A stretch of DNA of 64,000 nt, from assembly GCF_013410775.1 (NCBI RefSeq), contig NZ_JACCFH010000001.1, positions 2,294,001-2,358,000 of the forward strand, given 5' to 3'. The DNA comes from Sphaerotilus montanus (GTDB lineage Bacteria > Pseudomonadota > Gammaproteobacteria > Burkholderiales > Burkholderiaceae_C). The notes under the pieces were generated by a model. The model did no database searches, was not told the origin of the DNA, and worked only from the letters and a program-made list of their open reading frames with translations. A program made the position numbers and the translations under genes. Each line of letters begins with the position of its first letter. Positions within the stretch are counted from its first letter, which is position 1. This document shows, in pieces, positions 28,995 to 51,918 of the stretch.

Positions 28995-29074
28995 CGAAGC
29001 TTCCGCGCACGCGGGGCGGCGCGGGCCTACGATCTGTCACTCCAAGACCGAGCCAGACCGAGGAGACCGCCACC

Positions 29075-30226: not shown

Positions 30227-30340
30227 CCATTGGTTTCTGCGGGTTCCGCCCCACGGAGGTCTGAACACGGGCTGAACGCCTCGGTAGCATCGACCGCAGT
30301 CGATCCTGCCCCGTCCTGTTCGCCCTGTGTGAGTCCGTCC

Positions 30341-31615: not shown

Positions 31616-33037
31616 ATGCACGCCCTGACCCGTCCTGCTGCTGTTGTCCGCCCCGTGCCGCCCGCCGCTGCGCCGGACACGGGTCTGCCCGCTGCTGGCC
31701 GCACCGCGCTGGCGTTGCAGGCGGCGCTGCTGGGCTGTTCGAGTTTCGACGAAGGGGCGCGTGTTGCCGTGCGCGAACTGGCGCTGCGCCTCGGATTCGA
31801 GCGGGTCTCGATGGCGCTGGCGCGAGAGAACACCTTGCAGCTGGTGGCGGTGTCCGACGGCTCGGCCACTGACGCGGCCACGCCCGCGCGGGCCGCCTTG
31901 CTGGCGGCGCTGGGCGAGACCTTTGACCAGCAGGCCGGCGTCGTCTGGCCGGAGCCGCGGGGCCACACCGGCGTGCCGCGCATCACGCGGGCGCACCGCG
32001 CGCTGGCGCCGTCGCGGGGGGATTCGGTGGCCGGCGTGCCGCTGGTGGTGCAGGGCGCCTTGCTGGGCGCGCTGTGCTGCGAGCGCCGTGGTGGCGTGCC
32101 GGTCGATCCGGACGAACTGGCGATGCTGGAGCAGCTGGCGACCTGCATCGCGCCGGTGCTGGCGCTGCTGCGCGACCGCGAGCGGCCGTGGTACCAGCGT
32201 CTGCAGGCGGTGGCGACGACCCGCACGGCGCCGTGGCGCCGCGTGTCGCTGGTGGGCGCCGTGGTGCTGGCGCTGCTGGTCCTCGTCTGGCCGGCCGACG
32301 TGCACCTGGGCGGACAGGCGCGGCTCGAAGGGGCGGTGCAGCGCGTGCTGGCCGTGCCGGCGGACGGGTTCGTGCAGCAGGTCCACGCCCGCCCCGGCGA
32401 CAGCGTGCGCGCCGGACAGGTGCTGGTGGAACTGGCCGACCAGGATCTGCAGCTCGAACGCCAGCGCTGGCAGAGCCAGCTCGCGCAGCACCAGGACGCC
32501 TGGGCCACCGCCAACGCCCGCGCCGACCGCGCCCAGCTCGTGCAGAACCAGAGCCGCATCGACGAGGCGCAGGCCCAGCTCGATCTGGTCGACACCCGCC
32601 TGCAGCGCGGCCGGCTGGTGGCGCCCTTCGACGGCCTCGTCGTGCAGGGTGACCTCAGCCAGCAGCTCGGTGCGCCGGTGCGCCAGGGCGACGCGCTGAT
32701 GACGCTGGCGCCGGGCGACCGCTTCCGCATCATCGTCGAGGTGGACGAGCGCGACATCGCGCAGGTCCGCGTCGGCCAGACCGGCACGCTGGCGCTGACG
32801 GCGCTGCCCTGGCAGACGCTGCCGCTGCGGGTCACGCGCATCAGTCCGGTGGCGAAGGCGGTGGAGGGCCGCAATGTGTTCGAGGTCGAGGCTGCCCTGC
32901 CGGACCGCCCCGCCGACCTGCGCCCTGGTCTGCAGGGCCACGCGCAGATCGATGCCGGCCGCGCTGCCAACGGCTGGCGCTGGACCCGCCGGCTGGTGGA
33001 GACGGCGCGGTTGGCGCTGTGGGCGTGGTGGGGCTGA
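31616..33037 (+). CDS. GAF-domain HlyD-type membrane fusion protein
   Basis: 473 residues. Residues about 30-190 form a GAF-like domain ('LALRLGFERVSMALARENTLQLVAV', then 'SVAGVPLVVQGALLGALCCERRG'). One membrane helix follows at about 217-231 ('VSLVGAVVLALLVLVWP'), then a HlyD-type periplasmic part: a lipoyl-like half ('VPADGFVQQVHARPGDSVRAGQVLVEL'), a coiled-coil hairpin at about 280-330, the other lipoyl half ('VAPFDGLVVQGDLS') and a beta-barrel. A cytoplasmic sensory domain on an export adaptor is unusual. First gene of the roughly 20-kb operon; its stop overlaps the next start (TGATG). It probably bridges the inner membrane protease/exporter to an outer-membrane channel not encoded here. 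Confidence 0.85.
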   Translation: MHALTRPAAVVRPVPPAAAPDTGLPAAGRTALALQAALLGCSSFDEGARVAVRELALRLGFERVSMALARENTLQLVAVSDGSATDAATPARAALLAALGETFDQQAGVVWPEPRGHTGVPRITRAHRALAPSRGDSVAGVPLVVQGALLGALCCERRGGVPVDPDELAMLEQLATCIAPVLALLRDRERPWYQRLQAVATTRTAPWRRVSLVGAVVLALLVLVWPADVHLGGQARLEGAVQRVLAVPADGFVQQVHARPGDSVRAGQVLVELADQDLQLERQRWQSQLAQHQDAWATANARADRAQLVQNQSRIDEAQAQLDLVDTRLQRGRLVAPFDGLVVQGDLSQQLGAPVRQGDALMTLAPGDRFRIIVEVDERDIAQVRVGQTGTLALTALPWQTLPLRVTRISPVAKAVEGRNVFEVEAALPDRPADLRPGLQGHAQIDAGRAANGWRWTRRLVETARLALWAWWG

Positions 33038-35190
33038 TGGAGGCGCCGCTGCACAGTGCGCAGTGGTTCCGCGTGGCCGGGCTGCGGCCGCGGCTGGACG
33101 AACAGGCTGCCGTGCAGCGCATGGCCGTGCGGGGCGCGGTCTGGCAGGTGCTGACCCGCCCGGACGGCACGCGCAGCGTGCGCCTGAACGCCACCGCCTG
33201 GGCGACGATCGGCCGCTGCGATGGCCGCCACACCCTGCAGCGCCTGTGGGAGATGGCGCTGGCCGAGCTGCGCGACGACGTGCCGACGCAGGACGAGCTG
33301 CTCGGCCTGCTGGCCCGCCTGCACCGCGCCGGCCTGATGAGCTTTGACCGGCAGCCCGACTTCGGCGCGCCGTCGCCTGACGCTGCCGCCGACCGCACCA
33401 CCGCGGATGCAGAGGCGCCGCGGCAGTCGCTGCTGGCGTGGCGCATTCCCTTCGGTTGTCCGGACGCGGCGTTCGGCTGGCTGGCCGCGCGCCTGCGCTG
33501 GCTGTTCACGCCCGCCGCGCTGCTGCTGTGGCTGTTGGGCGTGGGCGCCGCGCTGGTCGCCGCCTGGCCGCACACGGCCGCGCTGTCGGCGCAGCTGCGC
33601 GATGGCCTGGGCACGCCCCGCGGCCTGGCCTGGGCGTGGCTGGCCTACCCGGTGATGAAGGTGCTGCACGAAGTGGGGCATGGCGTGGCGATCCGGCACT
33701 GGGGCGCGCGCGTGCCGCAGTGGGGCGTGACGCTGCTGATGGGCACGCCGGTGCCGTTTGTGGACGCGTCGGCCACCGCCGCGCTGCCGAGCCGCCGCCA
33801 GCGGGCGGTGGTGGCCGCGGCGGGCATCCTGGTCGAGTTGACGCTGGTGGCACTGGCCCTCGGGGTGGCGCTGGTGGTGCAGCCGGGCGCGCTGCGCGAT
33901 CTGGCGCTGGTGGTGGTGGCGATCGGCGGGCTGTCGTCGCTGCTGGTGAATGCCAATCCGCTGATGCGCTTCGATGGCTACCACCTGCTGTGCGATCTGG
34001 CGGACCTGCCGAATCTGGCGCTGCGCAGCGCGTCGCACTGGCTGCACGCCCTGCGCCGCTGCGTGCTGCGGATGCCGGGCGAGGCGCCGATCGTGCCGCT
34101 GCCGGGAGAGACGCCGTGGCTGTGGGCCTACGCGCCGGCGGCGCTGGCGATGCGCTGGAGCGTGGCGCTGGGCATGGGCTGGTGGCTCGCCTCGGTGTCC
34201 TCGGTGCTGGGTGCGCTGGCGGCGCTGTACTTCGGCTGGACGCTGGTCGGGCAGCCGCTGCGGGCGCTGGGGCGCTGGCTGACGGGCTGGTCGCTGGCGC
34301 CGGCCGAGCGGCGGCGGGCCGGCTGGTCGATCGCGACACTGGCGCTGTGCGTGCTGGGGCCGGCGCTGGCCGTGCCGCTGCCGGACGCCGCGCTGGCGCA
34401 AGGCGTGCTGTGGCCGCCGGAAGACGCGCTGGTCCGCACGCAGACCGCCGGGTTTGTCGACGCCGTGCTGGTCACGGAAGGCCAGGCCGTGCAGCGTGGC
34501 GACCCGCTGCTGCGCCTGGCCGCGCCCACGCTGCTGGCCGAGCGCGAACGCCTCGCCAGCCGCATCGAGGCGCTGCAGGCCGACCGGTTCCAGGCGCTGC
34601 GGCAGGACAAGGCGCAGCTTGCGGCGGTCGACCACGCGCTGCAGGCCGCCGAGGCCGAACGGGCGCAGACCGAGGAACAGATCGCTGGCCTCACCGTGCG
34701 CGCACAGGCCGGTGGCCGGGTGCACCTGACCGGCACGGACGATCTGCCCGGCCGCTGGCTGGTGCGTGGCGCGCTGCTCGGGCATGTCGACACCGGCGCA
34801 CCCGGCCGGGTGCGCGTGGTCGTCGCGCAGGCGGATGCGGCTGTCATCACCGCCCACCGGGGCCCGGTCGACGTCTGGCTGATCGGCTCGGCCGCGCCGC
34901 CGATGCGCGGGACGCTGGTCGGCACGCCGTCCGGTGGCGGCGCACCGCTGCCGAGCGCGGCGCTGGGCGAGCGTCACGGCGGCGGCATCGCCACCGATCC
35001 GGCCGATCCGCAGGGACTGAAACCCGCGCAGCCCGTGCTGCAGGCCGATGTGCGGCTGGCGCAGGCCACCGGCGAGCGCATCGGCGCCCGCGCCTGGGTG
35101 CGCTTCGAGCAGGGCCGCGCCCCGTTGGCCTGGCAGGCCGCACGGGCCCTGCAGCAGCAACTGCTACACCACCTCTCCCCGCAGCCATGA
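33037..35190 (+). CDS. PqqD-like domain - M50 site-2-type protease - HlyD-like fusion
   Basis: 717 residues from the ATG overlapping the upstream stop. Residues about 10-110 resemble PqqD-type winged helices ('VRLNATAWATIGRCDGRHTL...GLLARLHRAGLM'), the fold used as peptide-recognition element in RiPP systems. The membrane core carries the M50 zinc motif HEVGH (H211, E212, H215) and the second motif NANPLMRFDGYH (D313). About ten hydrophobic segments span 145-450. A periplasmic HlyD/lipoyl-like segment follows ('AGFVDAVLVTEGQAVQRGDPLLRL' near 470) with a short coiled coil. Known relatives occur beside HlyD adaptors in export clusters. Here it could bind and clip a leader on the giant protein during export. 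The overlap with secA-like downstream is ATGA. Confidence 0.85.
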   Translation: MEAPLHSAQWFRVAGLRPRLDEQAAVQRMAVRGAVWQVLTRPDGTRSVRLNATAWATIGRCDGRHTLQRLWEMALAELRDDVPTQDELLGLLARLHRAGLMSFDRQPDFGAPSPDAAADRTTADAEAPRQSLLAWRIPFGCPDAAFGWLAARLRWLFTPAALLLWLLGVGAALVAAWPHTAALSAQLRDGLGTPRGLAWAWLAYPVMKVLHEVGHGVAIRHWGARVPQWGVTLLMGTPVPFVDASATAALPSRRQRAVVAAAGILVELTLVALALGVALVVQPGALRDLALVVVAIGGLSSLLVNANPLMRFDGYHLLCDLADLPNLALRSASHWLHALRRCVLRMPGEAPIVPLPGETPWLWAYAPAALAMRWSVALGMGWWLASVSSVLGALAALYFGWTLVGQPLRALGRWLTGWSLAPAERRRAGWSIATLALCVLGPALAVPLPDAALAQGVLWPPEDALVRTQTAGFVDAVLVTEGQAVQRGDPLLRLAAPTLLAERERLASRIEALQADRFQALRQDKAQLAAVDHALQAAEAERAQTEEQIAGLTVRAQAGGRVHLTGTDDLPGRWLVRGALLGHVDTGAPGRVRVVVAQADAAVITAHRGPVDVWLIGSAAPPMRGTLVGTPSGGGAPLPSAALGERHGGGIATDPADPQGLKPAQPVLQADVRLAQATGERIGARAWVRFEQGRAPLAWQAARALQQQLLHHLSPQP

Positions 35191-37151
35191 CGCCCACCGC
35201 CGTCCTGCCCCGGCCCGGGCCGCTGCTCGGGGCCTATCCGCTGCGCGGCCCGTCGCCGCCGGCCGCGTGGGCCGGCTGGTGGAGCCGCACCGCTGCGCCG
35301 CCGCTGGTGAACCGGGTGGCCGCGATCCGGGCCCAGCAGGCGCGCTGGGCGGCGCTGAGCGAGCTGGAGTTCCGCGCCCACCTGCGCCGCCTGCGCGCCC
35401 GGCTGGCGCGCGACGGCTTCGGCGGTGCGCAGCGGGTGCGTGCGCTGGGCTGCGTGGCGGCGGCGGCGCAGCGGGCGCTCGGCCGCAATCCCTACGACAC
35501 CCAGCTGCTCTGCGCCGAGGCCCTGCTCGACGACCACCTCGCCGAGATGGCCACCGGCGAGGGCAAGACGCTGGCTGCCGCGCTGGCCGCCGCGGTGGCC
35601 GCACTCGCCGGCGTGCCCGTGCACGTGATGACCGCCAACGACTACCTCGCCGCCCGCGACGCCGCGCAGCTCGGTCTGCTCTACGGCGTGCTCGGGCTGC
35701 GCACCGGCGTCGTGCTCGGCAGCACCGCGCCGGAGGCCCGCCGCGCCGCTTACGCCTGCGACCTGACCTACGCCACCGCCCGCGAGATCGCCTTCGACCA
35801 CCTGCGCGACCGCGTCCACCTCCAGGCGCAGGGCAGCGAGCTGCAGCGCTGCGCCGCCCGGCTGGCAGGCGATGCGCCACCACCGCTGCTGCTGCGCGGG
35901 CTGTGCATGGCCATCGTCGACGAGGCCGACAGCCTCATGATCGACGAGGCGACGATGCCGCTGGTGCTCGCCGAGACGCAGGACGACCCGGGCCACCGCG
36001 CCGCCTGCTTCCAGGCGCTGATGCTGGCGCGCCGGCTGACCCCGGGCGAGGACCTGCATCTGGACGCCGAGCAGCTCGCCGTCCACTGGACCGAGGCCGG
36101 CACCGAGCGGCTGGAGCCACTCGCCGACAGCCTCGGCGGCGCCTGGCTGAACCGCCGGCACCGGCAGGACCTGGTCGGCGCCGCGCTCGTGGCGCTGCAC
36201 GGGCTGGTGCCGGACCGCCACTACCTCGTGCGCGAGGGCCGGGTCGAGCTGCTGGACGCCGTGACCGGCCGCGCCGCGCCGGGCCGTGTCTGGGCCCGCG
36301 GGCTGCAGACCCTGGTCGAGCTGAAGGAGGGCTGTCCCGTGACGCCGCCGACCCGCACCAGCGCGCAGACCAGCTACCAGCGCTTCTTCCTTGGCTACCT
36401 GCGGCTGTCGGGCATCAGCGGCACGCTGGCCGAGTGCCGGGCGGAGCTGCGCGCGGTCTACGGCCGGCAGATCGTCGCGGTGCCGCTGCGGCGGCCGGGG
36501 CTGCGGCAACTGGCGCCGCCGCGGCTGTTCGCGACCGGGCAGGCGCGGGCCGAGGCGATTCCCGCGCGGGTGCAGGCGCTGGTCGCGCAGGGCCGGCCCG
36601 TGCTGGTCGGCGTCAACACCGTGGCCGAGGCGCAGGCGCTGTCCGCGCGCCTGAACGTGGCGGGCATTGACCACCAGGTGCTCGATGCGCGCCACGACGC
36701 CGACGAGGCCGCCGTCGTCGCGATGGCCGGGCAGGCCGGCACCGTGACGGTGGCGACCCGCATGGCCGGACGCGGCACCGACATCGAACTCGGCGCCGGG
36801 GTGGCCGAGCGCGGCGGGCTGCACGTGCTCTGCTGCCAGGACAACGCCTCGGCGCGGCTGGACCGGCAGTGCATCGGCCGCGCCGCGCGCCAGGGCGATC
36901 CGGGCAGCGCCGAGGTCTGGCATGCGCTGGATGCCTCGATCTGGCAAAGCGGCGGGGCTTCAGTCGGCCTGCTGCGGCGCCGACAACAGGAGGGGCCGGG
37001 CGCCCTGGCCGTGCCCGCGGTGGTCGTGCAGGCATGGAACCGGCAGCTGCAGGGCACGCACCAGAAACAGGGCATGCGGCTGCGACGCCGCTTGCTGGAG
37101 CAGGACAGGACATGGCAGACACAACTCGACTTCACGCACCTGCACGCCTGA
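35187..37151 (+). CDS. SecA-like preprotein translocase ATPase paralogue, lacking the C-terminal domains
   Basis: 654 residues from an ATG overlapping the previous stop (ATGA); housekeeping SecA has about 900. The DEAD motor is intact: Walker A ATGEGKT (K127), DEAD box DEAD at 245-248 followed by SLMIDEA, and nucleotide-binding domain 2 with TRMAGRGTDI near 524-533 and 'CIGRAARQGDPGS'. The preprotein-binding region lies between. The sequence ends just after the equivalent of the start of the helical scaffold ('GMRLRRRLLEQDRTWQ'), so the helical wing, most of the scaffold and the zinc C-terminus are absent. It is therefore not the housekeeping SecA. In this operon it is the only export ATPase, and probably drives the giant protein. 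Confidence 0.88.
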   Translation: MTPTAVLPRPGPLLGAYPLRGPSPPAAWAGWWSRTAAPPLVNRVAAIRAQQARWAALSELEFRAHLRRLRARLARDGFGGAQRVRALGCVAAAAQRALGRNPYDTQLLCAEALLDDHLAEMATGEGKTLAAALAAAVAALAGVPVHVMTANDYLAARDAAQLGLLYGVLGLRTGVVLGSTAPEARRAAYACDLTYATAREIAFDHLRDRVHLQAQGSELQRCAARLAGDAPPPLLLRGLCMAIVDEADSLMIDEATMPLVLAETQDDPGHRAACFQALMLARRLTPGEDLHLDAEQLAVHWTEAGTERLEPLADSLGGAWLNRRHRQDLVGAALVALHGLVPDRHYLVREGRVELLDAVTGRAAPGRVWARGLQTLVELKEGCPVTPPTRTSAQTSYQRFFLGYLRLSGISGTLAECRAELRAVYGRQIVAVPLRRPGLRQLAPPRLFATGQARAEAIPARVQALVAQGRPVLVGVNTVAEAQALSARLNVAGIDHQVLDARHDADEAAVVAMAGQAGTVTVATRMAGRGTDIELGAGVAERGGLHVLCCQDNASARLDRQCIGRAARQGDPGSAEVWHALDASIWQSGGASVGLLRRRQQEGPGALAVPAVVVQAWNRQLQGTHQKQGMRLRRRLLEQDRTWQTQLDFTHLHA

Positions 37152-38083
37152 TGGGCGCGCGTGCGATCTCCGCCGTGCTGGCCACGGCCGCGCTGCTGGC
37201 CCTGCCCGGTCGGGCCGGTGCCGCACCACCAGCACCGGCACCAGGCGCCGTCATGCTGCCGGTCTCGCCGGCCGCATCGGCCCCCGCGCCGGCCGCGCCC
37301 CGCGCGGCCAGACCCACGCTCGGCTGCCTGATCAGCCCGGAGCGGGTGGCCGATGTCGGCTCGCCGGTGGTGGGCGTGGTGTCGGAGATCCCGGTGGACA
37401 ACGGCACCCTCGTGCAGGCCGGACAGCCGCTGGTGGTGCTGCGCTCGGATGTCGAGCAGGCCGGGCTGCACGCCGCCCAGGCCCGCAGTGCCATCGAGGC
37501 CGATGTCTACGCGGCCAAGGCCAATCTGATGCTCGCCCACCAGCGCCACGCCCGCGCGGTCGAGCTGCTGGGCGAGGGCTTCGTTTCCGCGCAGGCGGTG
37601 GAGCAGGCGCGCACCGAGCGCGACGTGGCCGACCAGAAGCTGCAGCAGGCCCGCGGCCAGCAGGAGGTCAGCCAGCAGGAGCTGCGCGTCGTGCAGGCCC
37701 AGCTCGGCCAGCGCACCGTGCGCAGCCCCTTCCGCGGCGTGGTGGTCGAGCGCTTTGTCAACGCTGGCGAGCGGGTCGAGGACAAGCCGCTGCTGCGGCT
37801 GGCGATGCTTGATCCGCTGCGGGTCGAGATCGTGATGCCGGCCAGTCGCTGGGGCAGCGTCGCCGTGAACCACACGCTGTCGGTGGTGCCGGAGCTGCCC
37901 GGGGCGGTGTCGATGCCGGCGAAGGTCACCCACGTCGACAAGATCATCGACGCGGCCAGCAACACCTTCCGGGTGCGGCTGGCTCTGCCCAATCCGGGCA
38001 ACCGCTTGCCGGCCGGAGCGCGGTGCAAGGTGGATGAGCCGGGTCTGTCCGCCACTTCGCTGTCCACGCGCGGCAGCCTCTGA
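37112..38083 (+). CDS. HlyD-family periplasmic adaptor subunit
   Basis: 323 residues from the ATG at 37112, which has AGGA six bases upstream; an ATG at 37151 that overlaps the SecA-like stop (TGATG) would give 310 residues and is an equal candidate. A signal peptide (core 'AISAVLATAALLALPGRAGA') is followed by a Pro/Ala-rich linker. The adaptor body has a lipoyl half ('VGVVSEIPVDNGTLVQAGQPLVVL'), an alpha-hairpin coiled coil at roughly 120-215, the second lipoyl half ('VRSPFRGVVVERFVNAGERV') and a beta-barrel. It resembles RND-type adaptors more than the membrane-anchored HlyD of gene 1 of the operon. It likely forms the periplasmic tunnel between inner-membrane parts and an outer-membrane channel. 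Confidence 0.87.
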   Translation: MADTTRLHAPARLMGARAISAVLATAALLALPGRAGAAPPAPAPGAVMLPVSPAASAPAPAAPRAARPTLGCLISPERVADVGSPVVGVVSEIPVDNGTLVQAGQPLVVLRSDVEQAGLHAAQARSAIEADVYAAKANLMLAHQRHARAVELLGEGFVSAQAVEQARTERDVADQKLQQARGQQEVSQQELRVVQAQLGQRTVRSPFRGVVVERFVNAGERVEDKPLLRLAMLDPLRVEIVMPASRWGSVAVNHTLSVVPELPGAVSMPAKVTHVDKIIDAASNTFRVRLALPNPGNRLPAGARCKVDEPGLSATSLSTRGSL

Positions 38084-38103
38084 CCGGTCCTGCTTTCCCG
38101 CGC

Positions 38104-41100
38104 ATGCCATCGACGACTGCCCGCGTCCGCGCCCGTGTCCTGATGGAAACGCTGGAGCCGCGCATCCTCTACTCGGCCGATCTGGCGGCGGTGGCAGCCC
38201 TGGCGGGCGGTGACGTCGGGTGGGTGCAGGAGCAGCGGCTGCAAGCCACCACGCAGACTGCGGACCAGACGGTGGTCCGCACCGAGATCGCCTTCGTGGA
38301 CCTCGGCATTCCCGAGGCCCGGTCGCTGGTCGGCGGCCTGCTGGCGGAACGCGTCGCCGGCCGCCCGATCGAGGTGGTCCCCATCGCCGCGGACGAGGAC
38401 GGGCTGGCCGTCATCAGCCGCACGCTGGACGAGCGGCAGGCGGCGGGCGAGACCTTCGATGCGGTCCATGTCTTCAGCCACGGCCAGTCGGGCGTGGTGG
38501 CGCTGGGCACGTCCACGCTCGACGCCGACAGCTTGCTGCGGCGCGCAGGCGAGATCGCCGACTGGGGCAGCGCGCTGAGCGCACAGGCCGACCTGATGCT
38601 CTACGGCTGCGATGTCGCTGCCGGGGCGAACGGGCTGTTCCTGATCGAGGGACTGGCCGCGCTCACCGGCGCCGACGTGGCCGCCAGCGACGACCTGACC
38701 GGCAGCGCCGCCCGCGGTGGCGACTGGCTGCTGGAGCAGCACACCGGCCAGATCGAGGCGACGGTGGCGGCGGATGCCGCGCTGCAGCAGACCTGGGACG
38801 GCGTGCTGGGCAGCGAGACGCAGGTCAACCTCACCACCGCGGGCAACCAGAATACCGGTGCGGAAACCCGTGGCAGCCAGCAGGCCGTGGCGCTGGATGC
38901 TGCCGGCAACTACACCGTCGTGTGGACCAGCGGCGGCCAGGACGGTGGCGGCAAGGGCGTCTATGTGCGCCGCTTCGCCTCCGACGGCACGGCGCTGACG
39001 GGCGAGATCCAGGTCAACACCACCACCGCCAAGGACCAGGAAAACGCCCGCATCGTCGGCGATGCTTCGGGGCAGTTCGCCGTGGTCTGGACCAGCCAGG
39101 ACCAGGACGGCACGACCGCCAGTGTCTACTTCCGCCGATTCGCTGCGAATGGCACCGCGCTGACCGGCGAGATCCGTGCCAACGCCAGCGACAGCGGTGA
39201 CCAGCTCAACGCGGTCATCGGCCTGAATTCCGGCAATGGCGACCTCGTCGTGGCGTGGGAAGGCGATGGTCCGGGTGGTCAGTCGGTCTTCTTCCGCCGT
39301 TTCGCCCAGGACGGCACGGCCCTGGATGCCACGGACCGGGCGGCGGGCACGCTGAACGGAGAGCTGAACCCCGCGGTGGCCATGGACGCGACCGGGCGGT
39401 TTGTCATCGCGTGGAACGACGGGCAGCACATCCGGTTCCAGCGCTACGACGCGGCCGGTGTGGCGGCTGGCGCCCTCACCCAGGTGGACGGACCTGCATC
39501 TGACAGCTTCGGCCCCGCGGTCGCCATCGATGACCAGGGCAACTTTGCCGTGGCGTACAGGGAGCAGTCGACGATGACCGGCCTCTGGGGGCTGTCGTAC
39601 ACGGCGACGGGCACACCGAAGAACGTCTGGTTCTATGCCGACACTGGAGACGCGACCAGTCCGTCGATTGCGCTGGCACCGGACGGTTCAGCGGTGGTGA
39701 CGTACCAGAAATCCGGCGACGGAGACGGCATGGGCATCTACGCCCGCAAGATCAGCGCGAGCGGTGTCGTGCAAGGGGCACCGATTCTGGTCAACCAGAG
39801 CACCGCCAAGGACCAGGTGGCCGCTTCGGTGGCAGTCCGCGACGCCGACCACTTTGTCGTGGCCTGGAGTGGCGATTCGGCCGCCGACAAGGACGGCGTG
39901 TATGCCCGTACCTTCGAACCCGCCAACACGCCCCCGCTGATCACCACCAACGGCGGCGCCAGCACGGCTGCGGTCTCGGTGGCCGAGAACACCACCGCCG
40001 TCACCACCGTTGGCGCAAACGACGTGGACTGGCCGGTCCAGACCATCCGCTATTCGATCGTCGGCGGTGCCGACCAGGCACGGTTTTCGATCGACAGCGC
40101 GAGTGGTGCGCTGCGCTTCGTTGCCGCTCCGGACTTCGAGCAGCCAGCCGATGCAGGTGGCGACAACCTCTACGAGGTCACCGTGCAGGCCAGCGACCTG
40201 CTGCTGGCCACCACGCAGGCCCTCGCGGTCACGGTCACGGATGTGGCGGACCAGATCGTGGCCGAGGCCGACACGGCCACGACCCCGCACGCCACCGCCG
40301 TGTCCATCGACGTGCTGGCCAACGACCGTCTGGGGACGGGCAGCACCTTGACGCTGCTGGACATCCGCCAGCCCGCGCATGGCCAGGCCACGGTGGTCGG
40401 CGGCGAGGTGGTCTACACGCCGGATGCCGGCTTCGTCGGCACCGACACCCTGCAATACCGGGTCGTCGATGGCAGCGAAGGGCTGGCTGCCTACTGGGCA
40501 CTCGACGACGACGTCGGCAGCCTGGCCGGCGAGCCCGGTGCCACGGCGGGGGTCTTTGGCCAGGCACTGCAGTTCGACGGCGTCGACGACCGGGTGGGGC
40601 TGACCGGTGTCACCTACACCAGCGAGTTCACCCTGTCCTACTGGTTCAAGCTGGCCGACAACACCGGCACCGGCTACCGCTACCTCTATGCCGATGGCAC
40701 GGCCGGCGTTCAGAACAGCCTCAATATCTACTTCATCGAGGACGCCACCAGTACCGCGTCCGGCATCAAGAATGTCCTGCGCACCTCGCTGGTCGACAGC
40801 AACGACGGCACGGCCATCACCAACACCTCGGCGCTGGACATCCCGGTCACCGGGCTGCTCGACAACCGGTGGCACCAGTACACGCTGACCACCGTGACGG
40901 GCACGGGCTCGTCCGTCTACATCGACGGCACCCTGCGCGCCATCAGCAGCCAGGGGGGTGACACGCTCACGACGAGCGGCTCGGTGCTGCTGGGGGCCAA
41001 CAGCACGCTCAGTGCCGCGCGCTTCCTGACGGGCGCGCTCGACGATGTGGCGCTCTACCACCACACGACCGCCGCGTCTGCCGTTGCCGCACTGGAGAGC

Positions 41101-44100
41101 GGACCCGGTGCCATCGGCACGGTGACACTCGACGTGGTGCCGGCCAACACGCAGACGCCGGTGATCACCTCGGGTGGCGGCGCAGATGCCGCCACGGTGA
41201 GCGTGGCCGAGAACGGCACCGCGGTCACTGTCGTCACGGCCTATGACACCGACGTTGGCGGGCCGGCCCTGGCCTACACGATCGTTGGCGGTGCAGACCA
41301 GGCCCGGTTCAGCATGGACGCTGCCAGTGGCGCCGTGGTCTTCCGTACCGTGCCGGACTTCGAGCAGCCCGCCGACACCGGCACCGACAACGTCTACGAC
41401 CTCACCGTCCAGGTCAGCGACGGCGTGCACGTCGACACCCAGCAGCTCCGGGTGGTGGTCACTGACGCGAACGAGTACGCGGTCTCGCCGATCACCGACG
41501 CCGATCCCGGCACCGAGGCGGTCGACGAAAACGCCGCGATCGGCACCACGGTCGGCTTCACCGCCAGCGCGGTCGATGCCGATGGCACGACCAGCGCCGT
41601 CACCTATTCGCTGGACGATTCGGCTGGCGGGCGCTTCGCGATCGACGCCACCACTGGCGTGGTGAAGGTGGCGGGCCTGCTGGATGCCGAGACCGCCAGC
41701 AGCCACACCCTGCTCGTGCGCGCCGCCTCGATCGACGGCAGCAACCAGACGCTGCAGGTCACGGTCGCCGTGCGCGATCTCGACGAAGCGCGCGTGACCA
41801 CCCCGGTCGACGCCGATGGGGCGCCGAACACCGTGTCGGAGCGTGCGGCCATCGACAGCGCTGTCGGTCTCACCGCCTCGGCCGTGGACGCGGACGCGAC
41901 GAACAACACCGTCACCTACACGCTCACGGACAACGCGGGCGGGCGGTTTGCCATCGACGCCAGTTCCGGCGTGGTCACGGTGGCGAGCGCGCTCGATGCC
42001 GAAACCGCGCTGAGCCACACGGTCACCGTGCAGGCCAGGTCCACCGACGGCAGCGTGGCGAGCCAGAGCTTCACCATCGTGGTGCAGGACGTCAACGAGT
42101 CGGCGATCGGCGCGGTCACGGATCTGAACAGCGCGGCAGAGTCGGTGCGCGAAGACGCGGTGATCGGGACGGCGGTCGGCTTCCAGGCCCATGCCGTCGA
42201 CGCGGATGCGACCAACCACACCATCACCTACGCGCTGGCGCTGAACTATGGCAACCGCTTCGCGATCGATGCCGCCAGTGGCGTGGTCACGGTGGCCGCC
42301 GCGCTGGACGCTGAAACCACGCCGGGCTATCTGCTGCTGGTGCGGGCGGTGTCGAGCGACGGCAGCTTCAGCTCGCGCTGGCTGGGGATCGGGGTGCAGG
42401 ACGTCAACGAGTTCAGCGTCACCGCGCCCATCGATGCCAACAGCGCCACCAACGCGGTCAATGACAACGCGGCCGTCGACACGCGGGTCGGCATCATCGC
42501 GTCGGCGCGTGACGCCGACGCCACGCGGAACCAGATCACCTATGCGCTGGCGGACGATGCGGCCGGCCGGTTCAAGATCGATTCGGGTACGGGTGTGGTG
42601 AGGCTGGCACGCAGCGTGGCGGCCGACAGCGGCAGCACGCTGAACCTCGTGCTGCAGGCCACCTCGGCCGACGGCAGTGTCGCGACCCAGGCGCTCACGG
42701 TCGCCGTGAGCCAGACCAATCTGTATGCGCCGGTGATCCAGTCCGACGGTGGCAGCACTTCGGCGGCCCTCGCCGTGCAGGAGAACAGCAGCGGCCCGGT
42801 CACGACCGTGGTGGCCACCGATGCCGACGTGTCCGGCGTGCCATTGAGTTACCAGATCGTCGGTGGCGCGGATGCCGCCCGTTTCACGCTGGACGCGGGC
42901 ACGGGTGTGTTGCGCTTCGTCGCTACTCCGGATGCAGAGCAGCCGATCGATGCTGGGGGTGACAACCGCTACGACCTGATCGTCGAAGCCAGTGACGGCG
43001 TCCGCGTCGATACCCAGACGCTGAGCGTGGTGGTGCAGGACGTCAACGAGGCGGCCATCAGTGCGCTCGCCGACGTGAATCTGGCGGCCGACACGGTGCA
43101 GGAAAATGCGGCGATCGGCACGGTGGTGGGCGTGCAGGCCCTGGCGGGCGACAGCGACGCGACGAACAACACCGTCACCTACACGCTCGGTGACACCGCG
43201 GGCGGCCGGTTCGCGATCGACGCCAGCACGGGCGTGGTGACGGTGGCGGGCCTGCTGGACGCCGAGGCTGCGCTGAGCCACACGATTCTCGTGCGTGCAG
43301 CATCAAGCGACGGCAGCGCGACGACGCTGGCGCTGACCATCGGGGTGCTGGACGTCAACGAATATGGCGTCGGTGCCATCACCGACGCCGATGGGCAGGC
43401 CAACAGCGTACGAGAGGATGATCCGGTCGGCACCACCGTCGGCCTGACCGCGCAGGCGCAGGACCTCGACGCGACCGCCAATGCCGTCACCTACTCGCTC
43501 GCCGATGATGCGGGCGGGCGCTTCGCCATCGACGAGACCACCGGCGTCGTTACCATCGCCCAGGCGCTGGACGCCGAGGCGGCGCAGAGCCACGGCATCG
43601 TGGTGCGCGCGCTGTCGGCCGATGGCAGCGTGCAGACACAGGCGTTCAGCATCGCGGTGCGCGATGTGGACGAGTTCGATCTGGTCGCGATCAACGACGT
43701 GGACGGTGCTGCCAATGCCGTGGCGGAGAACGCCGCGGTCGGCACGCGGGTGGGGATCACCGCGCAGTCGGTCGATGCCGATGTGACGAACAACAGCGTC
43801 ACCTATTCGCTCGACGACACGGCGGGCGGCCGGTTCGCGATCGACGCTGGCACGGGCGTAGTGACGGTGGCCGGCTTGCTGGACGCCGAGACGGCGCTGA
43901 GCCACACGATTCTCGTGCGTGCAGCATCAAGCGACGGCAGCACGACGACGCTGGCGCTGACCATCGCGGTGCAAGACGTCAACGAATACGGCGTCGGTGC
44001 CATCACCGACGCCGATGCGCAGGCGAACAGCGTGCGCGAGGATGATCCGGTCGGCACCACCGTCGGCCTGACCGCACAGGCGCAGGACCTCGACGCGACC

Positions 44101-47100
44101 GCCAATGCCGTCACCTATTCGCTCAGTGACAACGCAGGCGGGCGCTTCGCCATCGACGCCACCACCGGCGTGGTCACCATTGCCCAGGCGCTGGACGCCG
44201 AAGTGGCGCAGAGCCACAGCATCGTGGTGCGCGCGCTGTCGACCGATGGCAGCGTGCAGACGCAGGCGTTCAGCATCGCGGTGCGCGATGTGGACGAGTT
44301 CGATCTGGTCGCGATCAACGACGTGGACGGTGCTGCCAATGCCGTGGCGGAAAACGCCGCGGTCGGCACACGGGTGGGGCTCACTGCGCAATCGGTCGAC
44401 GCGGACGCGACCAGCCACACCGTGGCCTACGCGCTGCTCGACAGCGCGGGTGGGCACTTCGCGATCGACGCCACCACGGGCGTGATCACGGTGGCGGGCG
44501 CGCTCGATGCCGAGATGGCGCTGGCGCACACGCTGGTCGTGCAGGCCACCTCGGCCGACGGCAGCCTGTGGACACAGGCCTTCACCGTGCGCGTGACGGA
44601 TGTGGACGAGTTCGATCTGGTCGCGGTCAGCGACACCGATGCGGCCCGCGACGCCGTGGCGGAAAACGCCGCGGTCGGCACGGCCGTGGGCTTGCGGGCC
44701 GGGTCGGTGGATGCAGACGTGACGACCCATGGCATCACCTACACGCTGGACGACTCGGCCGGCGGGTGCTTCGCGGTCGACGCGGCGACCGGCGTGGTGA
44801 CGCTGGCGCGCGCGGTGCCGGACGAGGGCGTGGCCACACGCACGGTCGTGCTGCGCGCCACCTCGGCCGATGGCAGCACGGTGGCCGCGTCGTTCGACAT
44901 CGCCATCCTGCCGGTCAACGAACAGGCGCCGGTGATCGACTCGGACGGCGGGGGCGCGAGCGCCGCGCTCGTGGTCGACGAGGGGCAGATGGCCGTGGCC
45001 CAGGTGCTGGCGCACGACGACGATCTGCCCGCCGACACGCTGCGCTACCGCATCGCTGGAGGCGCCGATGCGGCCCTGTTCACGCTCGATGCGTCGACGG
45101 GCGTGTTGCGCTTTGCCGCGGCCCCCGATGCCGAAGCGCCGCGCGACCAGGGCGCCGACAACGTCTACGAGGTGCGCATCCAGGTCAGCGACGGTCTGCA
45201 CACGGACGAACAGGCCCTGCGCATCACCGTGCAGCCGCTCAACGACACGGCGCCGGTGATCACCAGCGACGGCGGCGGCGCCACGGCGGTGCGCTACGTC
45301 GCCGAGAACGCACTGGCGGTGACGCAGGTGCAGGCCCGCGATGCCGACTGGCCCATCGACACGCTGACCTACGCTGTGTCCGGCGGCGCGGACGCCGCGC
45401 TGTTCACGGTCGATGCCACCACCGGTGCGTTGCGCTGGCGTGCCGCGCCGGACCGCGAGACGCCCCGCGACGCGGGCGCCGATGGCGTCTACGACGTGAC
45501 CGTCCGCGTGAGCGACGGGCTGCACACGGCGTCGCAGTCGCTGACGGTGGTGGTGGACAACGTCGACGAAGCGCCGCGGCTCGACACCAATGCGCTGGCG
45601 GTTCTCGAAGGCGGCATGGCCCGGCCGGTGCTGCTGGCCAGCGATGTCGACACGCCCGCTGCGGCGCTGGTCTACACGGTGCAGGACCTGACGGGGGGCC
45701 GCTTCGAGCAGGCCACCGCACCAGGCGTGGCGGTCACGCGCTTCACGCAGGCCGAGGTCGATGCCGGCGCGATCCGCCTTGTCGCCGATGGCCACGAGGC
45801 CGCCCCGGCCTACCGGCTGGTGCTGGCCGATGCCACGACCACGCTGGCGCCGCAGGCTGCGCAGGTGGCGTTCACGCCCGTGAACGATGCGCCGGTGAGC
45901 GCCGTGGTCGATCTCGGCACGGTCGACGAGGACACGGCGCGCGTGATCACCGTGGCGGACCTGCTCGCCGGTGCCAGCGATGCCGAGGGCGATGCGCTGT
46001 CGGTGTCGACCCTGCGGCTGACGGGCGGCGACGGCGTGCTGGTCGACCTGGGCGGCGGCCGCTGGCGCTTCGATCCGGCCGCGGACTGGCACGGTGCGGT
46101 GACACTGGCGGGCGAGGTGAGCGACGGGCAGGCGGGCGTGGCGCTGGTGGCGACGCTGCAGGTGCGCGCCGTCAACGACGCGCCGCGCATCACCAGCAGC
46201 GGCGGCGCGGTCACGCTGGCGCTCGACCAGGCGGAAAACACCCCCGAGGTCACCACGGTGGTCGGCGCGGACGTCGATGCCGACGCGCCGCTGCACTACG
46301 CGGTGGTGGGTGGCGCCGATGCGGCGCGCTTCCAGATCGACGCGGCGACAGGCGTGCTGGCCTTCCGCCAGGCCCCGGACCGTGAGCAAGCCGCCGACGC
46401 CGATGGCGACAACCGCTACGACGTGCTGGTGGAGGTGAGTGACGGAGCCCTGACGGCGCAGCAGGCCTTGCAGATCACGGTGACCAACATCGACGAGGCG
46501 CCGGTGGTGATGCACAACGTCGCGCTGATCTCCGATGGCCGGGTCACGCTCGTGCTGCACGCCAGCGACCAGGACACCCCGGCGACCGCGCTGACCTACC
46601 GGGTGGACAGCGTGCAGGGCGGGCAGTTCGAGCTGTCGGCCGCGCCCGGACAGGCGGTGACCATGTTCACGCAGGCGGATCTGGACGCTGCCCGCGTCAC
46701 CTGGGTCGCGCCCGTCGGCAGCACGGCCACGGCCTTCGCGCTGCGCCTGAGCGATGGCCATTCGGAGGTGCGGATCGGTTCGCCGACACCGCAGCGCCAG
46801 GCGGTCGAGGCCGCCGAGATGACGCTGGTGGCTGTGGCTGCAGGGGACACCAGCGCAGCGCCTTCGGCCGGCGACAGTGCCGCCGCGACGACCGCCGCGC
46901 CGGTGGCCGCGGTCGCTCGGCGGAGCGACCCTGTGCTGCCACCACCGGCAGACAGCGCGGGTGATGACGCACTCGGTCTCGGTGCGCGCATGGCCGAGGA
47001 CGCTGGTTCAGCACGTGGCGGTGGCGTGCGGCCGGCGGCGGTCGATGCGCCGGTGATCCGTTCGACGGCGGTCCGCGCTGCCGCCGTGGCCGAGCCGCCA

Positions 47101-47564
47101 GCGGAGGTGGCACTGGACCTGCCGTCGGAGGGCGCCGAAGCGCCGAGGCGGCTGGTGACCGACATGGACCTCTGGGGTTCGCGCAACGGCACCTCGCTGG
47201 CCGAACAGATGGACCGCCTGCGCCAGGAAGTCGCCGATGCCCAGCAGGCCGGCATGGTCTCGCTGGCCTCGACGGCGCTGGTCTCGACCGGCCTGTCGGT
47301 GGGCTACGTGATCTGGCTGGTGCGCGGCGGGGTGCTGATGACCAGCCTGATGTCGGTCGTGCCGGCCTGGGCGGGCATGGACCCGCTGCCGGTGCTGGCC
47401 GAGATGCGCCGCCACGCGGCAGACGGCCTCGCGACCGACCGCACCGATGACGACGGTGACAGCGGCGATGACCCGATCGAGCAGCTCTTCAGCAAGGCCC
47501 GTCGCCTGCTCGTCCGCCCGGCGGCCGGATCGCCAGTCGCCCCTGAACCGCCCGAGGGCTCCGC

Positions 47565-47568
<4 letters not shown>
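38104..47568 (+). CDS. Giant LEPR-XLL / DUF4347 / cadherin-like repeat protein
   Basis: 3154 residues. The start METLEPRILYSADL (residues 14-27) is the LEPR-XLL motif found at the N-terminus of very long bacterial surface proteins; no ordinary signal peptide is seen. DUF4347 covers about 60-235 ('VHVFSHGQSG', 'MLYGCDVAAG'). Seven 45-60-residue repeats with a VVW...VYxRRF pattern (237-608) suggest a beta-propeller. Then come a cadherin-like repeat, a VLAND/GFVGTD Ig-like unit, a LamG-like domain (about 791-1005) and an array of cadherin-like repeats of about 104 residues (1010-2800) with DVNE and GRFAID motifs. A Pro/Ala-rich linker and a hydrophobic segment at about 3059-3095 end the protein with a short charged tail. 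No RTX motifs. Probably an adhesin or surface sensor, anchored by its C-terminus. Confidence 0.88.
41136..46500 (+). repeat. Tandem cadherin-like repeats, mostly 312-bp period
   Basis: In-frame coding repeats inside the giant gene. Between about 41292 and 44738 the period is close to 312 bp (104 residues), each unit carrying the D-x-D-A-T-x-N...VTY...GGRFAID...GVVTVA...LDAE...SHT pattern. Units before and after this are variants of different length with a GGADAARF pattern. This is protein repeat structure, not a mobile or CRISPR array. Confidence 0.85.
43179..44426 (+). repeat. Recent 624-bp tandem duplication in the repeat array
   Basis: 43179-43802 and 43803-44426 each hold two 312-bp units, and the two halves match closely even at silent positions (for example an identical stretch spanning CACACGATTCTCGTGCGTGC). 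Neighbouring units are much more diverged. This indicates recent duplication or gene conversion by two units. Confidence 0.8.
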
Positions 47569-50114
<2,546 letters not shown>

Positions 50115-50124
50115 GAACCCGCGC

Positions 50125-51918
50125 ATGTCTGCACCACAAACGTCCGCTCCGCTCGCTCCGTCCGAACCGGTCCATCCGTCCCAGCCGACGCTGTCGGACG
50201 TGACCATCATGATGGTCGATGACGAACCGATGATGACCGACGTCGCCCAGGCCTATCTGGAGGACGCCGGCTACACCCGCTTCGTCGCGGTCCACGAGCC
50301 GCTGCAGGCGATGGAGACCGCCCGCGCGCAGCGGCCGGGGCTGATCCTGCTCGACCTGATGATGCCGGAGCTGAACGGCTTCGACCTGCTGCGCCTGATC
50401 CGCCTGGACGAGCGGCTGCGCTACACGCCGGTGATCGTGCTGACGGCGGCCAGCGACCCGGCCAGCAAGCTGCGCGCGCTGGAGCTGGGCGCGACCGAGT
50501 TCCTCTCCAAGCCGGTGGACGCCAGCGAGCTGAAGATCCGCGTGCGCAACAGCCTGGCCTTCAAGGTCTACCAGGACCGGCTCGCCAACGACGACCCGCT
50601 CACCGGCCTGCCGAACCGGCGTGTCTTCGTCGAGCAGCTCAAGGCGGGGCTGGTGCGCGCCCGCTACAGCCACGGCACGCTGGCGCTGCTGCACCTCAAC
50701 CTCGACCGCTTCCGCCAGATCAACGACACCCTGGGCCACGGCACGGGCGATCTGCTGCTGGTGGCCGTGGCCGAGCGGCTGCGCCAGACCACCCGCTCCA
50801 CCCACAGCCTGCTCGGCCAGCGCCTGGGGGATGCACCCTTCCTGGCGCGGCTCGGGGGCGACGAATTCGCGCTGCTGATGCCCGACATTCCGTCGCCCGA
50901 AGCGGCCAGCCGGGTGGCGCGCCAGGTGCTGGACGCCTTGTCGCGCTCCTTCCATGTCGATGGCCAGGATGTCTACCTGACGCCCAGCATCGGCATCTCG
51001 ATCTTCCCCGACGACGGCGCCGACGACGCCTCGCTGCTGCGCACGGCGGGCGTGGCGATGCAGCACGTCAAGGCCAGCGGGCGCAACGGCGTCGAGTTCT
51101 ACAGCGAGAAGATCAACACCGTCTCGGTGGAGCGGCTGCTGCTGGAGACGCAGCTGCGCGGCGCCATCGAGCGCGGCGAGCTGGTGCTGCACTACCAGCC
51201 CAAGGTCGATCTGCGCACCGGCCACATCGTCGGTGCCGAGGCGCTGCTGCGCTGGCAGCACCCGACGCTGGGCCTGGTGGCGCCGGGGCGCTTCATCCCG
51301 ATCGCGGAGGAGTGCGGGCTGATCGTCGAGATCGGCGAATGGGTGATCCAGCGCGCCTGCGCGCAGCTGGCGCAGTGGCGGGCCGAGCACCGGCTGGCGG
51401 TGCGCGTGGCGGTGAACGTGGCGCGGCACAGCGTGGTGTCCGGCACGCTGCTCGACACCACGCGCGACGCGCTGCAGCGCCACCGTGTGCCGGCCAGGCA
51501 GCTCATCCTCGAACTCACCGAGAGCATGCTGATGGACCGCGTCGAGACCACCGCGGCCAAGCTGCATGCGCTGCGGGCGCTAGGGGTGGAGCTGTCGATC
51601 GACGACTTCGGCACCGGCTACTCCTCGATGAGCTACCTCAAGCAGTTCCCAGTGCAGGAACTCAAGATCGACCGCTCCTTCGTCAAGGGCACGCCCGACG
51701 ACCGCACCGACACCGCCATCGTGCGGGCGCTGGTGGTGCTGGGCCACAGCCTGGGCATGCGCGTGGTGGCCGAAGGCGTGGAGACCGAGGAGCAGCGCGT
51801 CGCCATGCAGACGCTGCGCTGCGACTGCTACCAGGGCTTCCTGTGCAGCCCGGCACTCCCCGCCGCCGACTTCATCCAGAAGGTCCGCGAGGTCAACGGC
51901 CAGCCGGCCCGCGCCTGA
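50125..51918 (+). CDS. Response regulator with GGDEF and EAL domains (c-di-GMP turnover)
   Basis: 597 residues from the ATG at 50125; an in-frame TTG at 50107 is the alternative. The receiver domain (about 24-145) has the acidic pair DDE at 32-34, phosphoacceptor D77 (LLDLMMPELNG) and K in 'LSKPVD'. The GGDEF domain carries an intact GGDEF at 244-248. The EAL domain carries E372-A373-L374 in AEALLRW and the loop 6 motif 'DDFGTGYSS', so both synthesis and hydrolysis of c-di-GMP are possible; net activity cannot be read from the sequence. It is the last gene of the operon, 10 bases after the kinase, its probable phosphodonor. It overlaps the convergent rhodanese gene by 26 bases. Confidence 0.92.
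   Translation: MSAPQTSAPLAPSEPVHPSQPTLSDVTIMMVDDEPMMTDVAQAYLEDAGYTRFVAVHEPLQAMETARAQRPGLILLDLMMPELNGFDLLRLIRLDERLRYTPVIVLTAASDPASKLRALELGATEFLSKPVDASELKIRVRNSLAFKVYQDRLANDDPLTGLPNRRVFVEQLKAGLVRARYSHGTLALLHLNLDRFRQINDTLGHGTGDLLLVAVAERLRQTTRSTHSLLGQRLGDAPFLARLGGDEFALLMPDIPSPEAASRVARQVLDALSRSFHVDGQDVYLTPSIGISIFPDDGADDASLLRTAGVAMQHVKASGRNGVEFYSEKINTVSVERLLLETQLRGAIERGELVLHYQPKVDLRTGHIVGAEALLRWQHPTLGLVAPGRFIPIAEECGLIVEIGEWVIQRACAQLAQWRAEHRLAVRVAVNVARHSVVSGTLLDTTRDALQRHRVPARQLILELTESMLMDRVETTAAKLHALRALGVELSIDDFGTGYSSMSYLKQFPVQELKIDRSFVKGTPDDRTDTAIVRALVVLGHSLGMRVVAEGVETEEQRVAMQTLRCDCYQGFLCSPALPAADFIQKVREVNGQPARA

Follow-up and report, generated by a model that had tools for sequence, protein, structure and literature searches.

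Gram-positive bacteria can have an additional SecA, the accessory SecA2, next to a large surface-type protein. Type I and tripartite TolC exporters rely on HlyD adaptors in the company of TolC. In daptide biosynthesis, an intramembrane peptidase that depends on a RiPP (ribosomally synthesized and post-translationally modified peptide) recognition element (RRE) removes a leader with the motif E-L-D-P-M-E-x-P (cited portion of PMC10036551). Here, we describe a cassette of seven co-directional genes at positions 31616-51918 (+ strand) of a 64,000-nucleotide window (the whole stretch analyzed, positions 2,294,001 to 2,358,000 of contig NZ_JACCFH010000001.1) from the 5.07-Mb genome of Sphaerotilus montanus. 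This cassette encodes a fusion of a PqqD-type RRE, an M50 site-2 protease and an HlyD module, further HlyD-type adaptors, a SecA-like ATPase, and a giant protein with an N-terminal LEPR-XLL motif (LEPR giant). The protease-adaptor fusion and LEPR giants are coupled across Pseudomonadota, and we put the probability that the cassette matures and exports LEPR giants as an apparatus dedicated to them at about 0.5; dedicated export had been proposed in a preliminary description of the locus.

The locus resembles each of the described systems in part. Like the daptide RRE-S2P protein (NF041824; MpaP in the cited portion of PMC10036551), the cassette protease carries an RRE/PqqD domain ahead of M50, with homology over both parts. 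Unlike the daptide protein, it adds a C-terminal HlyD module, neighbors a giant instead of a small precursor peptide and scores below the 300-bit cut-off of the daptide model. HlyD adaptors and TolC company are shared with type I and tripartite exporters, but no ABC gene was found near the cassettes of this genome, the window giant has no RTX repeat, and a membrane protease fusion takes the place of the transporter. The SecA-like ATPase belongs to the SecA family by NBD1, PPXD, NBD2 and its ATPase motifs and shares with SecA2 the position next to a large surface-type protein; it differs from canonical SecA and SecA2 translocases by ending before the helical-wing domain, the two-helix finger and the C-terminal linker, and its partners are HlyD and M50 proteins. 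By score, the giant belongs to both the LEPR-XLL (NF012209) and DUF4347 (PF14252) families, the entries of which name the domain only, and its Pfam matches include neither RTX nor two-partner secretion (TPS) domains. A Vibrio giant with both LEPR-XLL and RTX is named in the cited portion of PMC10868602. Among the matches listed in the open-licence literature, none described a system built on M50-HlyD or SecA-HlyD or one for LEPR export, in line with the preliminary description; the export function of the gene system is what we infer from it. We know of no account of how LEPR giants leave the cell.

Results and Discussion

Composition of the Cassette

The seven genes of the preliminary description were all confirmed in one direction; they and two segments of the giant are listed by window position.

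31616-33037, + strand: GAF-HlyD protein of 473 residues with an N-terminal GAF domain and an HlyD-type adaptor part (Pfam GAF and HlyD_3/HlyD_D23), between which hydropathy indicates a hydrophobic segment at about residues 211-229.
33037-35190 (alternative GTG start at 33019), + strand: RRE(PqqD)-site-2 protease (M50)-HlyD fusion (Pfam, NCBIfam, AlphaFold2).
35187-37151, + strand: SecA-like ATPase of 654 residues with NBD1, PPXD and NBD2, followed by the first part of the scaffold helix (Pfam SecA_DEAD/PP_bind/P-loop).
37151-38083, + strand: RND/HlyD-type adaptor of 310 residues with a hydrophobic N-terminus (RND_mfp, 120 bits against a cut-off of 94.9, scored on a longer open reading frame at 36869-38080).
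38104-47568, + strand: LEPR-XLL giant of 3154 residues (NF012209, Pfam), both ends of which are common to two paralogues.
38146-38181, + strand: LEPR-XLL core, residues 15-26, ETLEPRILYSAD (NF012209; consensus of 15 relatives), the proposed leader or export signal.
47254-47397, + strand: hydrophobic stretch at the C-terminus (about residues 3051-3098) that may form two membrane helices and ends in DPLPVL (hydropathy; motif).
47565-50114, + strand: hybrid histidine kinase with PAS, receiver and Hpt domains (Pfam HisKA/HATPase/REC/Hpt).
50107-51918 (likely start ATG 50125), + strand: REC-GGDEF-EAL protein (Pfam, start codons).

The spacings between consecutive genes are -19, -4, -1, +20, -4 and -8 nt. 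The SecA-like gene overlaps the M50 gene by 4 nt and the adaptor gene by 1 nt, and the start codon of the 310-residue adaptor lies inside the stop codon of the SecA-like gene. For the M50 fusion, ATG 33037 (1-nt overlap with the preceding stop) is a more likely start than GTG 33019; for the cyclic di-GMP (c-di-GMP) gene, ATG 50125 (+10 nt spacing) is more likely than TTG 50107. The HlyD-type modules number three, against the two adaptors noted earlier, because one is fused to M50. The shortened SecA paralogue of about 650 residues corresponds to the 654-residue product.

Coupling to LEPR Giants

The genome contains this gene set three times. SecA_DEAD matches above the cut-off number four, namely the housekeeping SecA and accessory copies in the window, at C1:304653 and at C1:3334139; a fifth match falls below the cut-off. 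The three LEPR-XLL matches (E<=1) and the three RRE-S2P matches (E<=1e-6) lie at the same three places as the accessory SecAs. By curated models, LEPR-XLL, accessory SecA and RRE-S2P are paired 1:1:1 in the whole genome, and with three co-linear cassettes this pairing exceeds chance. The two paralogous cassettes encode GAF-HlyD, PqqD-M50-HlyD, SecA-like, adaptor and LEPR giant proteins (giants of 5607 and 969 residues), followed by a GGDEF protein with a sensor half that resembles that of the window kinase; matches to the sensor profile also occur at loci L025, L026, L032 and L034. Since the paralogues are only 39 and 43% (M50) and 42 and 46% (SecA-like) identical to the window copy, the cassettes are old paralogues.

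Profile searches of the window, in which 150 of 192 first-look ABC_tran candidates were scored, detected neither an ABC membrane domain nor an ABC ATPase, nor any TolC-type protein/OEP. This agrees with the earlier view that a locus with no ABC exporter ATPase, RTX repeat or TPS partner is neither a type I locus nor a two-partner system. The cassette could nevertheless contribute its adaptors to a type I system in trans, with the ABC exporter and TolC encoded elsewhere. The genome has nine ABC_membrane and 91 ABC_tran matches (from the same 150 scored candidates), and one ABC_membrane protein (C1:1492220) lies about 2 kb from an OEP gene. None of these matches lies within 40 kb of the three cassettes, the window giant has no RTX repeats, and the signal common to the giants is N-terminal; we regard a type I system in trans as very unlikely. 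The ABC/OEP pair (G000:C1:1488557-1493020, with an ABC_tran match at 1491587) is perhaps an ordinary type I exporter away from the cassettes.

A contig scan with the three M50 proteins of the genome gave 24 named loci, including Sphaerotilus, Leptothrix, Rubrivivax, Zoogloea, Cognatazoarcus, Chromatiales and Desulfococcus; the queries came from SecA-bearing cassettes, so the set leans toward SecA. A SecA-like frame, sometimes clipped by the contig end, lies downstream of M50 in all 24 loci, and GAF-HlyD lies upstream in 22, the other two contigs starting at M50; at L018 the adaptor is located upstream, on the opposite strand. A giant with an LEPR-type start follows downstream in 15 loci. At L029, L033 and L035 a long repeat protein stands upstream with its N-terminus outside the stretch; that of L029 is apparently split over two frames, and four genes intervene. 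A long repeat protein thus adjoins or lies near the cassette in 18 of 24 loci. At five loci (L017, L021, L022, L023, L027) the contig stops before the giant position, and at L026, where a sensor gene follows and 1.5 kb is readable upstream, no giant is in reach. Locus L096 (G101:C40) shows a reordered cassette: giant-like frame, adaptor, M50, SecA-like gene, GAF-HlyD.

To quantify the association we used a sample of 398 Pseudomonadota genomes. NF012209 matched in 84 genomes (E<=0.05) and the M50 profile in 153 (E<=1e-10). An M50 match was counted from 235 bits upward (89 genomes; weaker ones were left out), and an LEPR site when its open frame had 900 or more residues (91 of 121 sites, 64 genomes; the other 30 were left out). 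Under these thresholds, 61 genomes have both a long LEPR frame and M50-HlyD, three have LEPR only (G028, G189, G212), 28 have M50 only, and 306 have neither (odds ratio 222, p 6e-46 by a Fisher test, which ignores phylogeny). M50-HlyD thus occurs in 61 of 64 genomes with a long LEPR frame and in 28 of 334 without one. With all 121 LEPR sites the corresponding counts are 70, 14, 19 and 295. The M50 search scored two candidates per genome, and some LEPR-M50 pairs were missed. The 61 co-occurring genomes span 24 family and 35 genus labels. For 45 of the 91 long LEPR frames a listed M50 match is present on the same contig, in 38 of these cases at a distance of at most 10 kb. The coupling between LEPR and the cassette is real and widespread: what had been suggested from one locus is a conserved unit that travels with LEPR giants.

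If the cassette instead served another cargo, such as a small peptide, the giant would be a bystander or a surface receptor for that cargo. RRE-S2P proteins are indeed known from RiPP clusters (cited portion of PMC10036551), and several M50 clusters have no giant within 10-20 kb. Against the strong LEPR linkage over 24 family labels, we give this explanation hardly any weight.

The RRE-Protease-Adaptor Fusion

The constant core of the system is the RRE(PqqD)-site-2-protease-HlyD unit together with HlyD adaptors. In the window protein both the HExxH motif and the second-site NPxxxxDG motif are intact, and H217, E218, H221, N311, P314 and D319 are invariant in 21 aligned sequences. Of 19 further M50 proteins, all have HExxH and 11 match the second-site pattern. 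Pfam assigns PqqD, Peptidase_M50 and HlyD to the window protein, the first two slightly below their curated cut-offs (Peptidase_M50: 23.9 bits against a gathering threshold of 27.2). Within the SecA branch, 19 of 21 members match Peptidase_M50 and 15 of 21 match PqqD at E<=0.01 in Pfam. The NCBIfam model daptide_HExxH (NF041824) covers residues 25-404 of the window protein with 112.5 bits, below its cut-off of 300, and the same daptide RRE-S2P family is the top NCBIfam match of 10 of 10 M50 proteins from clusters lacking SecA (143-172 bits). A profile match to the solved PqqD structure 3g2b (E 2.6e-6) supports the RRE, which we place at about residues 17-105 of the fusion. The AlphaFold2 model of the fusion has a mean pLDDT of 84, and structure-search fold lists were dominated by the HlyD module; because of this, the PqqD/RRE assignment rests on sequence profiles, and the lack of PqqD and S2P entries in the lists carries no weight. 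The nearest relative of the window M50 protein (81% identity) comes from a Sphaerotilus metagenome-assembled genome.

SecA Marks One Branch

The SecA-like protein retains intact Walker A, DEAD-type and MAGRGTDI motifs. Its predicted structure stops at SecA residue 616, and the solved SecA2 chains that it matches (6sxh, 6t4h and 4uaq, with 705-771 residues seen) reach past its end. In 16 of 19 accessory SecA sequences, 63-81 residues follow GRxxRQGDPG (the remaining three have no match to the pattern), compared to 313 in the housekeeping SecA of S. montanus. In the genomes probed, 24 of 25 accessory SecAs lie within about 0.1-1.1 kb (<2 kb) of an M50 match; the remaining one (G014:C25) is located just below the frame of an LEPR giant.

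The SecA-like gene belongs to one branch of the M50 family. Among 30 high-scoring M50 loci (>=490 bits), it follows M50 in 27; L061 is a contig end, and at L062 (G186) and L063 (G332) the adaptor comes directly after M50. A further 20 stretches include 17 with low-scoring M50 (244-341 bits), none of which contains a second SecA. A small adaptor is present in 15 of these 17 (not L076 and L079), and in 11 a giant begins with an LEPR- or LEQR-type motif, for the most part LEPRxMFDGA; three OEP-like lipoproteins tested from them proved to be OEP/TolC. Genome-wide SecA counts in 40 genomes follow the same division: all 16 genomes with low-scoring M50 only have one SecA, and the 22 genomes with high-scoring M50 divide into 19 that have two to four SecAs and three (G186, G332, G010) that have one. 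G246 and G379, with very weak M50 matches, have one SecA each. In an M50 tree of 76 rows, the 17 low-scoring rows split off with support 100 as a sister branch, and G186 and G332 nest in the SecA group (support 98 for the containing set). If the root of this tree, which is drawn midpoint-rooted, lies between the two groups, SecA was probably gained once and lost twice. G186 (L082) encodes a giant in a 2850-codon frame with LEPRLLFSA and DPLPIL and has a single SecA; in G332 an OEP gene follows the adaptor.

The preliminary description had SecA motor, protease and adaptors acting together on the giant. The protease-adaptor unit does keep company with LEPR, but because the sister branch and G186 retain LEPR giants with a single SecA, a necessary role of the SecA-like protein is not supported. 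As a general rule, we rejected this motor as the defining component, given the single SecA in the sister branch and the two nested lineages without a second one. G010 was discarded as a third such lineage; at the SecA position its cluster holds a 675-residue frame (L117:10667-12691) that is weakly SecA-like (79 bits with our profile; 16.4 bits in Pfam, below the cut-off) and may be a strongly diverged or decayed motor. At L112 (G291:C79, 4083-6504) the SecA-like gene looks broken or mis-assembled, with its sequence distributed over three frames. The cluster of G159 has a SapC (PF07277) gene between the M50 fusion and the SecA-like gene (L084:8163-9044); SapC, which is absent from the window cassette, is linked with S-layer secretion loci.

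M50 score is an imperfect sorter of the branches when used alone: G034:C32, G061:C30 and G165:C30 (L114, L115 and L116; 353-391 bits; not in the tree) adjoin SecA. Their M50-HlyD frames (599-608 residues) have no N-terminal part; instead, a PqqD-like part of 149-167 residues forms its own overlapping frame directly before M50, and SecA-like and adaptor genes adjoin. The separate frames of L114 and L116 score 84-85 bits against the N-terminal part of the M50 profile and have no Pfam match at E<=0.01. L114 and L116 have an OEP/TolC gene in addition, and L116 also has a giant-like frame of 1695 residues. These gene sets demonstrate that SecA and TolC can coexist and that the PqqD part can stand alone, and the notion that TolC replaces SecA was dropped. 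TolC-type genes occur in the clusters of L071, L074, L083, L087, L114, L116 and L117. The outer-membrane channel is indeed missing from the window, as noted earlier, and with TolC-type genes in relatives' clusters both with SecA (L114, L116) and without it, TolC gains weight as that channel.

These branches bear on a conventional explanation, in which SecYEG and the housekeeping SecA take the giant across the inner membrane, the cassette acts in later processing and outer-membrane passage or release, and the SecA-like protein only boosts capacity for long chains. This would fit the SecA-less G186, the giant of which retains the same two ends, and the sister branch, which has adaptors and TolC and no motor that we could find. 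However, the giant has no classical signal peptide by eye, and the SecA-like gene overlaps its M50 and adaptor neighbors and follows M50 in all 24 named loci. We consider passage through SecYEG rather unlikely.

The Giant Proteins

The window giant matches the NF012209 LEPR-8K model at residues 13-33 of 3154 (26.9 bits against a cut-off of 17). Its N-terminal LEPRILYSAD is followed by DUF4347 (residues 62-235), cadherin/immunoglobulin-type repeats and the C-terminal hydrophobic stretch with DPLPVL. All three giants of the genome share the LEPR start and the hydrophobic end with DPLPVL, and a hydrophobic end with a DPLPVL-type motif recurs at L018, L025, L028, L034 and L082. The N-termini of the giants are often basic ahead of LEPR and, judged by eye, show no classical signal peptide, in keeping with the preliminary description. 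In the sampled genomes LEPR open frames reach about 19,000 codons.

The hydrophobic end raises the alternative that M50 acts at the C-terminus, where an inner-membrane-held giant would be released by the site-2 protease, inside the membrane, on a c-di-GMP or kinase signal. Such release would be comparable to that of LapA by LapG. Both the stretch with DPLPVL in the window branch and the linked sensor, phosphorelay and c-di-GMP genes would suit such a role. The best 19-residue hydropathy reaches 1.51-2.03 in five window-branch relatives and 0.77-1.32 in five sister-branch giants; the latter have no comparable stretch, yet the same fusion protein accompanies them. We consider C-terminal release unlikely.

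DUF4347 was rejected as the common denominator of the giants, as the 969-residue giant of this genome does not contain it. In the window (38287-38808), His-65 (SHG) and Cys-108 (YGCD) of the domain are invariant in 16 sequences, and the only solved chain named DUF4347, 9qpe_G, gives a weak match (E 5e-4). We presume a likeness to caspase-like clan CD self-processing proteases and treat this as a lead only. Genome G294 encodes two long DUF4347 proteins with no LEPR match and has no M50-HlyD match, and DUF4347 is thus not tied to the cassette. At L079 (G141:C333, 1378-6225) a single 1616-residue frame starts with LEPRVLLDGA and DUF4347 and ends in an HlyD-like adaptor, a possible natural fusion of an LEPR protein with an adaptor. 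Immediately upstream of the window cassette lie a LysR gene and then two genes for FMN-dependent dehydrogenases (FMN_dh), at 28065-31504.

Proposed Mechanism

In an export apparatus dedicated to LEPR giants, the PqqD/RRE domain would bind the N-terminal LEPR segment as a leader, like a RiPP enzyme, and the site-2 protease domain would cleave within the mildly hydrophobic residues that directly follow LEPR. The exit across the periplasm would be formed by the HlyD modules together with a TolC-type channel; several relatives encode such a channel within the cluster, and here it would come from elsewhere in the genome. The SecA-like protein of the SecA branch would be an optional cytosolic motor or holdase that prevents folding of the giant and passes it to the membrane by its PPXD clamp, lacking the finger that inserts into SecY. 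The timing of giant display may be set by the sensor kinase and c-di-GMP genes. Taken as a whole, the chain of events in which LEPR-XLL is a RiPP-style leader, read by the RRE, cut by the site-2 protease and followed by transfer of the chain to the fused adaptors, amounting to secretion without an ABC or RND pump and with a finger-less SecA added in one branch, is a tentative proposal. The separate PqqD frames of L114-L116 count in favor of dedicated export, as if this part were a working unit. The daptide leader motif E-L-D-P-M-E-x-P also resembles E-x-L-E-P-R.

Several points weigh against dedicated export. The likeness between LEPR and LDPM may be chance, and no inner-membrane channel was recognized: the M50 fusion is not a known pore. 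The second SecA is missing in G186 and G332, and the motor is dispensable there. No giant is in reach at L114 (20 kb) and L115 (10 kb), each of which has SecA, M50 and OEP or OEP-like genes. The Fisher statistic leaves phylogeny out of account, and 28 genomes have M50 only. Mostly one M50 place was read in each of these; 17 have a giant-like neighbor (G158, G298 and G199, and 14 of the other 25, which were judged by a crude rule of composition), six matches are on contigs shorter than 8 kb, and at L091, L092, L102, L103 and L109 no giant lies within 12-20 kb. The giants of G158 and G298 start with LEQRMMFDAAG and LEQRFVFDGAG and were missed by the LEPR model. Finally, the control genome of Deinobacterium chartae has an LEPR match above the cut-off and none to RRE-S2P; outside Pseudomonadota, LEPR may work with different partners.

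Conclusions

Should dedicated export of LEPR giants prove true, the fusion of a protease that reads a leader to an export adaptor would bring together the fields of RiPP maturation and protein secretion. LEPR proteins would gain a predicted processing site and a partner, and the SecA-like protein, as a natural finger-less SecA, would be a test of the need for the two-helix finger.

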